Source of the DNA: Rhodotorula mucilaginosa
Taxonomy: Eukaryota; Basidiomycota; Microbotryomycetes; Sporidiobolales; Sporidiobolaceae
DNA length: 64,000 nucleotides
Assembly: GCA_034406715.1 (NCBI GenBank)
Contig: CP137873.1
Span: 248,001-312,000, forward strand
Direction of reading: 5' to 3'
The translations under genes were made by a program, and so were the position numbers. Numbering within the stretch: position 1 is the stretch's first letter; every line of letters begins with the position of its first letter. This document shows positions 42,901 to 54,405 of the stretch, in pieces. Below the pieces are notes generated by a model. It worked only from the letters and a program-made list of their open reading frames with translations. It was not told the DNA's origin and made no database searches.

Positions 42901-44319
42901 CTCACGATTGACGGCATCTACTACGTCATCGACCCGGGTTTCGTCAAGCAGAACGCGTACGACCCCCGACTCGGCATGGACTCGCTCATCGTGACGCCGA
43001 TCTCGCAAGCGCAGGCACGGCAGCGGTCGGGTCGCGCCGGCAGGACGGGACCGGGCAAATGTTACCGCCTGTACACCGAGGCCGCGTACCGGAACGAAAT
43101 GCTCCCGAACAGCATCCCCGACATCCAGCGTCAGAACCTCGCCCACACGATCTTGATGTTGAAAGCGATGGGTATCAATGATCTCTTGAACTTTGATTTC
43201 ATGGATCCCCCGCCGCACCAGACGATGATCACGGCGCTCGAAAACTTGTACGCCCTGTCGGCGCTCGACGACGAAGGCCTCTTGACCCGCCTCGGACGCA
43301 AGATGGCCGACTTGCCGATCGAGCCGCCGCTCGCCAAGATGCTGATCGCGTCCGTCGACCTCGAGTGCTCGGAAGAGATCCTGACGATCGTTGCCATGCT
43401 GTCGGTCGGTGGATCCGTGTTTTATCGCCCGAAGGAGAAGCAGGCGCAGGCCGACGCGAAGAAGGCCAAGTTCCACCAGCCCGAGGGTGACCACCTGACG
43501 CTTTTGACCGTCTACAACGGCTGGGCAGCGTCCAAGTTCAGGTGCGCGGCCTCTCCGGCGCCGATTTGTCTTGAAGCTGCTCGCTGACGCGCTTCGTTTG
43601 TGAACTCGCTCGCAGCAACCCCTGGTGCTCGGAGAACTTCATCCAGGGCCGCGCGATGCGGCGAGCTCAGGACGTCCGCAAGCAGCTTCTCGGCATCATG
43701 GACCGGTACAAGCACGACATCCTTTCGTGCGGCAAGAACTACAACCGAGTCCGCCGCGCCATCACGTCCGGCTACTTCCGTCACGCCGCAAAGAAGGATC
43801 CGCAAGAGGGTTACAAGACTCTTGTTGAAGGGTGAGCTGTGTGCGTGTATGTGCAAGGATGTGCATATGCTGATTCCGATCGCGCGCAGAACTCCCGTCT
43901 TTTTGCACCCGTCGTCCGCCCTTTTCAACCGCGCACCCGAGTGGTGTGTCTACCACGAGCTCGTCTTGACCACGTGAGTTGTTGCAGTGCAGTCGTGTTG
44001 TTGAGATCTTTACTGGATACTGACTATGTCGACCCGTCTTGTGCAGGCGCGAGTACATGCGCGAGGTGACGGCGATCGAGCCCAAGTGGCTGACCGAGGT
44101 CGCGCCATCGTTCTTCAAGGTGGCGGACCAGAATACGATCTCGAAGCGGAAGAAGATGGAGAAGGTCCAACCGCTGTTCGACAAGTGCGTTGACGGATTC
44201 CTGCTTGCAAAGTTGACAAAAACTGATCATTCTCATTCTGCAGGTACGCCGAGCATCAGGACGCATGGCGTCTGTCGAAGCTCAAGCGGGCGACGCGCTC
44301 CAGTCAAACTTTTGGTTGA
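39963..44319 (+). CDS. PRP22: DEAH-box spliceosomal ATP-dependent RNA helicase PRP22 (DHX8)
   Basis: Prp22 uses ATP to release spliced mRNA from the spliceosome. Nine exons: 39963-about 40031, 40112-40912, 40987-41864, 41980-42346, 42473-43541, 43616-43831, 43890-43973, 44047-44184 and 44244-44319. Exon 1 begins [21 protein letters not shown] charged Gly-rich region precedes the S1 RNA-binding domain ([20 protein letters not shown], then GMVHIGSIS). Helicase motifs: GDTGSGKTT (Walker A), [12 protein letters not shown] in [31 protein letters not shown] and [14 protein letters not shown]. The C-terminal HA2 and OB-fold parts end [14 protein letters not shown]. The first intron has alternative donors. 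Intron 4 holds a 20-bp direct repeat. From exon 6 onward the gene is identical to the array copies downstream. Confidence 0.95.
42366..42405. repeat. 20-bp tandem direct repeat in PRP22 intron 4
   Basis: The 20-bp unit TTGCGTGGAAAGAGCCCGGT occurs twice head to tail within the intron between exons 4 and 5. It looks like a small slippage or replication duplication with no coding effect. Confidence 0.9.
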
Positions 44320-45617
44320 GGCAAAAAGTCTGTACGAGGAGGGCATGCTGGAGCTGCAGGACTTTGTCCGGGATTGTCGCGGGACAACATTGTGCACTGC
44401 CTGTCTCTTTCCTTCCTTTCTTCTCTCCCCTTCCCTCTCTGTGCTCTCGGTCCAGTCTGGTGTATTTTCACAGTACTGTTGTACAATCAAGCTATACTGC
44501 CAAATGCGTCACCGCCTGCAGAGTCATTCGCAGGGAACTTTCCGCGGTGGCGATGTTTCCTTTACTTCGGCTGATTGACACTAGCGAGACCATGGAGCTC
44601 TGCATGGCGAAGTCACATGTACAGGAGGTACACAGATCAAGGTCCCGTGAGCTGCACATCAACCGCTGTTGACCAGAAAGCTTGGCAGAAACGTACGAAA
44701 TTTGCCCGAGCAAGCCCGAGACAGGAGCAAGGGGTGCCTTTGCGCAGTTCCTCTTCTTCCTATGCCTCCACGGAGTCGAAAGGGCTCGCCTTCTCTTGGA
44801 TCATGATGTTGTACGGTTTGGAGTTCATCAACCTCCGCGCTTGGAGAAGAGGAGGGACGCAAGTTTCTTGTTGCGAGATTCATTACTACCATACGACGCG
44901 CCATTCACTTGCGCATACAGTTCTCCATTCTGCCCGATTGCTTTGTACAAGAAGACCGCTCCCACAGATGAGAAACTTCAAGGGGCGACTCTTCGCTTTT
45001 GCTGTCAGATTTCGCTGTCAGAAAAGCTTGCGGCTCGCGCGCAGCATCGTTTCCCGGTTCAAGCAACTTTGCGCACCCTGCACCGCCTAAAGTGCCCGCG
45101 CTTGTCTTGTTTCAACCTCCTAAACCTACCACCGTGCCGTTCCATTACTCGAGAGCATCCAGTCAGAGAGGAGGATTGAGGGGCCGCTGGCTGCACTCTG
45201 CGCTCGTGGTGGCACTCCACTTGCCCGCGCGTTTTGCAAACCCTACACAGCCTCAAGTGCGCGCGCCTATCTGATTTAGGCCTTTTGAAGGTACAATCTT
45301 GCTATTATGACGCTCGATAGCATCTAGAGAGGAGTCATGAGGGGTTGCTTGCTGTTTTGCCGCCGAAAAATCTGCAGCTCGTCCCTCGGTTCAAGCGATT
45401 TTGCGTAGCCTGCACCGCCTAAGTTGCCCGCGCTTGTCTTGTTTCGGACTCCCGAACCTACAATCTCGCCCTTCCGGAACCCGATAGCATCCAGGAAGGA
45501 GTTTCGAGGGGCCGCTGGCTGTTTCTGGTGGAACGGCCTGCTCCTTCTTCTTTGAAGTCCCCTTCTCGCTTCCTCTGCCCATGGACCTCACTAACACTTG
45601 TTTGATTTGCAGACCCA
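44320..45617. other. Region D: downstream flank of PRP22, the repeated non-coding core
   Basis: Starts at the PRP22 stop and is present five times in the array, the last copy truncated. It holds a pyrimidine-rich stretch (about 44400-44450), no recognisable gene, three diverged monomers of about 166 bp (45057-45555), and ends in CTAAC...TTTGATTTGCAG, which looks like an intron branch site and acceptor. Frames of up to about 170 codons cross it on both strands but overlap each other and show no family signature. Confidence 0.7.
45057..45555 (+). repeat. Three diverged monomers of about 166 bp in region D
   Basis: Similar segments begin near 45057, 45224 and 45389. Each carries a TTTTGCG/TTTTGCA start, CCTAAAGTGCCCGCGCTTG or a variant, and a later AGCATCCAG...GAGG...CCGCTGGCTG block. 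Monomers 1 and 3 are closest; monomer 2 is more diverged. The block recurs in every region-D copy. The final monomer after 54405 is a distinct variant mixing features of monomers 1 and 3. Confidence 0.75.
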
Positions 45618-52188: not shown

Positions 52189-54405
52189 TTGACCAAGTCT
52201 GCCGGCCGCAAACTGTCAACGCCACCTCGAGAAGCCGGCCTGCTCAGGTGGATGTTCATAGAGTTTCTCGGGCAAAGCCTGGAAGAGCGGCAATTGTGTC
52301 CTGCTCTCGCTCCACATTTTTATGGGCTATCAAGCTCAGTCAGCACCCACACCCAGTGTGCAATTGAGATTCAGCACAGAGCCATCTAATTTGTGTGTCT
52401 GGAGAGTGTTCCATGTGACGGAACCGACTTGAGTTGGATGTCCCACTCGCCTCGCGGTGCGGATTCTTTCTTTCGCCTTAGACTCGCATTTTTTTTTTTT
52501 TTTGCTTGACCCGCCCTTTCACGCAGGCACATTGCAACACATGTGATTTTCTCAAGCATACAGCCCCGTGGCATCCCTGCTTCAGGACCCCTGCACCCGG
52601 TAAGCTCGATTCAGCAAAAGCTCTTGCCAGCGCAGCTGGCTGTCTAAGGCTCAATACAACCCAGATCAGGAGTCCAACGGCTGGGCAGCGTCCAAGTTCA
52701 GGTGCGCTCGTGTGCGCGGTTTCGATTCTTGCAGCTGGTCGCTGACGCTGTATGATTCCCTGCACAGCAACCCCTGGTGCTCGGAGAACTTCATCCAGGG
52801 CCGCGCGATGCGGCGAGCTCAGGACGTCCGCAAGCAGCTTCTCGGCATCATGGACCGGTACAAGCACGACATCCTTTCGTGCGGCAAGAACTACAACCGA
52901 GTCCGCCGCGCCATCACGTCCGGCTACTTCCGTCACGCCGCAAAGAAGGATCCGCAAGAGGGTTACAAGACTCTTGTTGAAGGGTGAGCTGTGTGCGTGT
53001 ATGTGCAAGGATGTGCATATGCTGATTCCGATCGCGCGCAGAACTCCCGTCTTTTTGCACCCGTCGTCCGCCCTTTTCAACCGCGCACCCGAGTGGTGTG
53101 TCTACCACGAGCTCGTCTTGACCACGTGAGTTGTTGCAGTGCAGTCGTGTTGTTGAGATCTTTACTGGATACTGACTATGTCGACCCGTCTTGTGCAGGC
53201 GCGAGTACATGCGCGAGGTGACGGCGATCGAGCCCAAGTGGCTGACCGAGGTCGCGCCATCGTTCTTCAAGGTGGCGGACCAGAATACGATCTCGAAGCG
53301 GAAGAAGATGGAGAAGGTCCAACCGCTGTTCGACAAGTGCGTTGACGGATTCCTGCTTGCAAAGTTGACAAAAACTGATCATTCTCATTCTGCAGGTACG
53401 CCGAGCATCAGGACGCATGGCGTCTGTCGAAGCTCAAGCGGGCGACGCGCTCCAGTCAAACTTTTGGTTGAGGCAAAAAGTCTGTACGAGGAGGGCATGC
53501 TGGAGCTGCAGGACTTTGTCCGGGATTGTCGCGGGACAACATTGTGCACTGCCTGTCTCTTTCCTTCCTTTCTTCTCTCCCCTTCCCTCTCTGTGCTCTC
53601 GGTCCAGTCTGGTGTATTTTCACAGTACTGTTGTACAATCAAGCTATACTGCCAAATGCGTCACCGCCTGCAGAGTCATTCGCAGGGAACTTTCCGCGGT
53701 GGCGATGTTTCCTTTACTTCGGCTGATTGACACTAGCGAGACCATGGAGCTCTGCATGGCGAAGTCACATGTACAGGAGGTACACAGATCAAGGTCCCGT
53801 GAGCTGCACATCAACCGCTGTTGACCAGAAAGCTTGGCAGAAACGTACGAAATTTGCCCGAGCAAGCCCGAGACAGGAGCAAGGGGTGCCTTTGCGCAGT
53901 TCCTCTTCTTCCTATGCCTCCACGGAGTCGAAAGGGCTCGCCTTCTCTTGGATCATGATGTTGTACGGTTTGGAGTTCATCAACCTCCGCGCTTGGAGAA
54001 GAGGAGGGACGCAAGTTTCTTGTTGCGAGATTCATTACTACCATACGACGCGCCATTCACTTGCGCATACAGTTCTCCATTCTGCCCGATTGCTTTGTAC
54101 AAGAAGACCGCTCCCACAGATGAGAAACTTCAAGGGGCGACTCTTCGCTTTTGCTGTCAGATTTCGCTGTCAGAAAAGCTTGCGGCTCGCGCGCAGCATC
54201 GTTTCCCGGTTCAAGCAACTTTGCGCACCCTGCACCGCCTAAAGTGCCCGCGCTTGTCTTGTTTCAACCTCCTAAACCTACCACCGTGCCGTTCCATTAC
54301 TCGAGAGCATCCAGTCAGAGAGGAGGATTGAGGGGCCGCTGGCTGCACTCTGCGCTCGTGGTGGCACTCCACTTGCCCGCGCGTTTTGCAAACCCTACAC
54401 AGCCT
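52189..54405 (+). repeat. Third, truncated 2,581-bp unit
   Basis: Follows the unit sequence for 2,217 bp and then departs at CAGCCT within the second 166-bp monomer of region D. Its exon 9 and region D carry the same base variants as the parental copy rather than those of the inner units. Confidence 0.9.
52675..53471 (+). pseudogene. Truncated PRP22 3' gene copy 3
   Basis: Exons at 52768-52983, 53042-53125, 53199-53336 and 53396-53471, potential start at 52712. Here the C-terminus reads KLKRATRSS as in PRP22 itself, unlike copies 1 and 2. Confidence 0.75.

Follow-up and report, generated by a model that had tools for sequence, protein, structure and literature searches.

A tandem array of PRP22 3' ends in Rhodotorula mucilaginosa, near-identical from exon 6 onward beside a diverged intron 5

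Tandem repeats are kept alike by gene conversion and unequal crossing-over, the process known as concerted evolution. A described fungal array that carries a piece of a neighbouring gene is that of CUP1 in Saccharomyces cerevisiae: every 2.0-kb unit contains YHR054C, which has the same sequence as the last 1 kb of RSC30, and the full-length RSC30 gene lies at the end of the array (PMC4232551). The authors of that account argue for non-homologous end joining, homology at the junctions being at most 3 bp, if present at all, and one junction having an unexplained base at the fusion (PMC4232551). Partial duplicates are reported to make up 63% of spontaneous duplications in lines of Caenorhabditis elegans and 76% of copy-number variants in Drosophila lines, and partial plus chimeric duplicates 11% in S. 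cerevisiae versus 56-86% in worm and fly (PMC3449122). Massive amplification without direct selection has been reported in mutants of engineered yeast (PMC4856073). In the basidiomycete yeast Rhodotorula mucilaginosa, a window of 64,000 nucleotides (bases 248001-312000 of a 1,023,225-base contig, in an assembly of 20.35 Mb and 19 contigs) contains an intact gene for the spliceosomal helicase Prp22, followed head to tail by incomplete direct copies of its own 3' end. The main surprise of this locus is not PRP22 as the host gene but the sharp edge of homogeneity within the repeated unit, where identical exons stand next to a diverged intron.

The array is a real structure of the assembly, and the head-to-tail partial copies described in an earlier note on this DNA, made from the sequence alone, were recovered when the window was compared with itself: a period of 2581 extends over 45619-54418 with 99.87% identity (6,219 aligned bases), 44210-45617 matches 45619-47026 (1,408 bases, 99.86%), and 43515-45617 recurs at 47513, at 50094 and, for 1.75 kb only, at 52675. 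Counted by this period from 45619 (copies 0-3, a numbering distinct from that of units 1-5 below), copy 0 differs from copies 1 and 2 at 2 of 2,581 positions each, copies 1 and 2 do not differ (0/2,581), and copy 3 has 4-6 differences per 1,057 from copies 0-2, two of them at the edge; such similarity is far above chance. The right edge of the array, at 54405-54418, agrees with that given earlier (54405), whereas the left edge is at 43515, about 100 bases before the 43614 of the earlier note.

Five units, all on the plus strand, can be distinguished. Unit 1 (43515-45617) is the 3' end of the parent gene, comprising the last 27 nt of exon 5, intron 5, exons 6-9 and the 3' flank without a 486-bp segment that the inner units possess. 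Unit 2 (45619-47512) is 5'-truncated, beginning within the last intron and retaining exon 9, the flank and the 486-bp segment; it differs from unit 3 at 2 of 1,894 bases. Units 3 (47513-50093) and 4 (50094-52674) are full units of 2,581 bp with no difference between them; unit 3 consists of the exon-5 remnant, a variant intron 5 (47540-47605), exons 6-9 (47606-47821, 47880-47963, 48037-48174 and 48234-48309) and flank, and the exons of unit 4 are at 50187-50402, 50461-50544, 50618-50755 and 50815-50890. Unit 5 (52675-54418; exons 52768-52983, 53042-53125, 53199-53336 and 53396-53471) is 3'-truncated and enters the right flank inside a copy of a short repeat, R. Thus exon 9 is present five times, exons 6-8 four times and the 486-bp segment three times (47027-47512, 49608-50093 and 52189-52674), and these three are its only matches in the 20.35-Mb genome. 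The R repeats of the flank (R1, 45041-45193; R1b, about 45232-45357; R2, 45374-45521) are mutually about 70-80% alike.

From the start of exon 6, the parent and unit 5 are identical over 43616-45253 (0 differences in 1,638 bases), including introns 6-8 and about 930 bp of flank, and the parent differs from units 3 or 4 at 4 of 2,002 bases. The adjoining intron 5 of the parent (43542-43615, plus strand, 74 bp) has diverged from the 66-bp intron 5 of units 3-5, with 51 identities and 12 mismatches among 63 aligned positions and a further 14 gap positions; the two are nonetheless homologous, their alignment scoring 21.5 versus a maximum of 9.0 in 300 shuffles. A near-identical stretch therefore adjoins diverged homologous sequence, as in concerted evolution; the contrast of 0/1,638 with 12/63 gives a Fisher p of 2e-18, for boundaries that were set after the data had been seen. 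Both types of intron 5 retain GTGCGC, CTGAC and CAG, the 27-nt exon-5 remnant is unaltered in all three units that possess it, and to the left of the remnant similarity stops (32/100). The earlier claim of near identity across exons, introns and noncoding DNA accordingly holds from exon 6 onward but fails for intron 5. The divergence of intron 5 indicates that the split between parent and array predates the homogenisation of most of the unit, and the split may be old; the amplification was also said to be recent, which holds for the last conversion or amplification but not necessarily for the first duplication. The locus is a warning that a duplication is not datable by the near identity of its copies.

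The repeat of 1,409 bp that the earlier note placed directly after the gene does exist, but the better reading is that a deletion fused a unit to the parent. Were unit 1 complete and directly succeeded by another complete unit, the repeat would start at 46791; the actual start is 45619, so 1,172 bp are missing. The fusion reads GACCCA-CAAG-TTGAC, with CAAG-TTGAC at 45618-45626; TTGAC is common to the two sides and, on the left, is followed by CAAG, suggesting end joining with a small templated insert. At 45013 and 45067 or the equivalent positions, units 1 and 5 have C,C and units 2-4 have T,T. Had unit 2 arisen as a local copy of unit 1, it should carry C,C as well; it is thus more simply explained by a deletion that joined two units, and would then be a normal unit whose start was lost along with the parent's end. 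Local duplication of unit 1 followed by conversion is possible. Units 3 and 4 also carry AA for GG, which, like the pattern of C,C in the outer and T,T in the inner units, is as expected if the inner units spread later. The GG-to-AA change (48278-48279 and 50859-50860) is a dinucleotide change, CC to TT on the other strand, which is a form often left by ultraviolet damage.

At the right edge, unit 5 follows the other units to 54405 (4 differences from unit 4) and thereafter the register of R1b at 49 of 77 positions. The terminal repeat R3 (54384-54509), which forms the joint between the array and the native right flank, is identical to R1b up to 54405 and 81% identical to R2 over 126 nt, R1b and R2 being 70% alike. 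This arrangement suggests that the array was trimmed by exchange between related R repeats; plain divergence is a possible alternative.

The explanation that we favour, with modest confidence, is a partial tandem duplication without function that was later re-homogenised. The stretch that begins 27 nt before the end of exon 5 and extends about 1.8 kb beyond the stop codon would have been duplicated head to tail, presumably by end joining or microhomology repair, and placed between PRP22 and a convergent putative PCI-domain gene. The duplication would be old enough for intron 5 of the parent and that of the copies, whose divergence is evident, to have drifted apart. Judging from identity and the sharing of variants, one or more later events of conversion or unequal exchange would have erased the differences between parent and units from exon 6 into the 3' flank and raised the number of units to five. 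Finally, as the two junctions suggest, the 1,172-bp deletion would have joined unit 1 to unit 2, and trimming at the R repeats would have shortened the array on its right. Several points weigh against this scenario. The 27-nt remnant is unaltered in 3/3 units despite the drifted intron, the chance of which under free drift is 0.5-8%, depending on the way in which sites are counted; taken with the kept splice signals, this fits a once-functional lineage better than dead copies. Nothing in the right flank corresponds to the 582 bp of flank confined to the array (local score 18.5; shuffled mean 21.4), so the scenario has to include a further loss or gain, and the age and direction of conversion are only what we infer.

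An alternative that we consider unlikely, but the most credible of those weighed here, is that the units came from a diverged PRP22 haplotype, belonging to a different lineage or a closely related species, and entered by homologous recombination. A small circle could, for example, have inserted through one crossover within the shared block, with mismatch or gap repair making that block identical. Such an origin would explain why both outer edges of the array are native while the inner units have their own intron 5 and a 582-bp flank unseen elsewhere, and why the splice signals of intron 5 and the 27 flanking coding bases were kept, as in a functional lineage. Also in its favour, two strains of R. 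babjevae have an average nucleotide identity of just 84% and are regarded by the authors as different species (PMC9027234), and R. mucilaginosa JGTA-S1 is haploid according to one paper and possibly tetraploid according to the other (PMC6476726, PMC9027234), accounts that keep an exchange of haplotypes alive. A second haplotype was not seen, however, the identity of parent and unit 5 in introns 6-8 and in some 930 bp of flank requires full homogenisation on this account, and the likeness of R2 and R3 can be ordinary repeat paralogy. If it were true, recombination could place repeats at an essential gene harmlessly. A more specific form, in which a small circle carrying the diverged PRP22 tail of another haplotype or a sister lineage inserted through a single crossover at the 3' end of the gene, kept the gene intact and then multiplied, is rather improbable; a housekeeping gene would in that case have received a natural "ends-in" insertion that repairs itself.

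Equally improbable is an assembly error, in which a shorter array or a heterozygous locus was expanded by the assembler. The identity of units 3 and 4 over 2,581 bases is what such an error would produce, but the contig is 1,023,225 bases long and opens with telomere-like CCCTAA repeats, about 290 kb from the array, and simple stutter would not be expected to yield a variant intron, variants specific to particular units, and a fusion and a right edge that are each unique. The least probable of the alternatives is that the units are functional, either through a tail of Prp22 that competes with the full protein for its partners or as spare 3' ends. The frame and splice sites of exons 6-9 are intact in 3/3 units that hold these exons (units 3-5), and the exon-5 remnant is conserved; from an internal ATG these units could encode a tail of 157 amino acids in which Pfam recognises the OB domain alone. 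On the other hand, the stretch from the nearest in-frame stop upstream to the exon-5 remnant of the units contains no ATG in frame, and conversion accounts for the identity of their exons. Units 3 and 4, two of the three, also have glutamine for arginine at a near-invariant site: among 120 full-length homologues examined, 99 have arginine, one has lysine and 20 are without the motif, and among 120 short homologues four have arginine and 116 are without the motif. In a search for stand-alone tails, 721 candidates were scored and 695 passed; the best 120 of the 695 reach at most 88% identity and include no stand-alone tail gene from R. mucilaginosa, which may reflect absence of the array or absence of annotation.

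Units 2-5 are without the helicase core expected of a functional Prp22 copy. Unless an upstream exon is spliced in, the units could contribute at most the 157-residue OB-fold tail or identical alternative 3' exons. The parent is the copy predicted to make Prp22 and the downstream units are probably inert. A gene carried by the flank seems unlikely: the longest flank open reading frame (ORF) beginning with ATG (157 aa) barely exceeds the 95% point of base-shuffled flank (153), and the longest such ORFs of unit plus flank score -0.58, -0.78 and -0.42 bits per codon, far under the coding control of held-out PRP22 pieces (+0.53 to +0.60 in 3/3). There is no Rfam match to a noncoding RNA in the array and no tRNA within the window. 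Thus no payload gene was found in the unit by ORF coding scores, Pfam on five ORFs or Rfam, a combination that a spliced or unfamiliar gene could escape.

The earlier note saw no transposon machinery, and this was upheld. No transposase domain was matched by Pfam in five ORFs of the unit and edge, and the unit segments searched have no dispersed copies, matching the array locus only. A middle piece of the flank has at least five genome matches, all in the array locus, and the R repeat has at least ten, of which 10/10 listed are in the array locus, ruling out R as a dispersed repeat. The intron 5 of the units is likewise not a mobile intron, its four genome matches (E up to 1) being the three units and the parent. 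Inverted repeats at the array edges (300 nt each) do not exceed shuffled sequence (score 18.5; shuffled mean 16.1, 95% point 21.5), and the two inverted-repeat pairs found in three short stretches examined, of 17 and 18 nt, are both within 43400-45700 and neither is at an edge. Pattern scans of a prokaryote and a viral contig collection, where little was expected, gave six matches and one, respectively, none of them confirmed as DNA of a related yeast. Eight 10-kb stretches of the genome contain no array, and one has a weak repeat (75%, 177 bp, near the contig end).

The parent, PRP22/DHX8 (39963-44319, plus strand), is complete, as previously stated. Splicing by hand gave nine exons (39963-40050, 40112-40912, 40987-41864, 41980-42346, 42473-43541, 43616-43831, 43890-43973, 44047-44184 and 44244-44319), separated by one GC-AG and seven GT-AG introns, and a translation of 1,238 amino acids. 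The closest protein is R. mucilaginosa Prp22, with 1,229 of 1,239 aligned positions the same (99%), end to end, and no difference in the C-terminal tail; R. sphaerocarpa is second by identity (90%). Its S1, DEAD, Helicase_C, HA2 and OB domains (Pfam, scanned on the 99%-identical R. mucilaginosa Prp22, P0121) are the S1, DEAH helicase, HA2 and OB domains of the PRP22/DHX8 family, DHX8/Prp22 is the best match, and DHX8 is the best match of the tail in the PDB. The helicase core is present once per genome: no second full PRP22 was found, matches outside the locus being at most 68% identical (37 of 49 candidates scored). Intron 1 (40051-40111) is the GC-AG intron; three residues next to it are missing from the public R. 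mucilaginosa protein, apparently because the gene models differ. Intron 4 has a 20-bp perfect tandem duplication (42366-42406), a second, tiny tandem event within PRP22.

The convergent neighbour, on the minus strand from 54689 to perhaps about 57.5 kb, has a weak PCI-domain match, under the curated cut-off; we take it to be perhaps a subunit of the COP9 signalosome. Elsewhere in the window, 14251-15586 and 16306-17644 are direct copies, 76% alike, the first with an open frame of 445 codons, and parts of 30187-31128 and 32454-33372 are 75-79% alike; each is probably an older tandem gene pair.

The array provides a natural case, from a basidiomycete yeast, in which the edge of what appears to be gene conversion is legible at base level. 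It also has a practical consequence, since gene callers could break PRP22 up or join it wrongly at this locus. No literature account of a tandem duplication of Prp22 was found among titles and abstract openings. The earlier note knew of no such partial amplification beside its parent from other fungi, but the CUP1/RSC30 array of S. cerevisiae is a fungal precedent (PMC4232551), and the PRP22 array is most likely an arrangement of a known kind with an unusual host gene. Like the CUP1 array as described there, it has head-to-tail units (2.0 kb in CUP1, 2,581 bp here) that contain the 3' end of a neighbouring gene beside its intact copy. It differs in that CUP1 units hold a metallothionein gene known to be selected, whereas no payload was found in the PRP22 units, and in that intron 5 of the parent is unlike that of the units. 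With the partial gene duplicates reported from worm, fly and yeast (PMC3449122) it shares incomplete gene copies and recruited flank, but there are several re-homogenised copies rather than one. It resembles other cases of concerted evolution in its identity over exons, introns and flank, with drift remaining at the edge of homology, and is distinguished from them in that only a gene fragment is repeated and the edge coincides with an intron.

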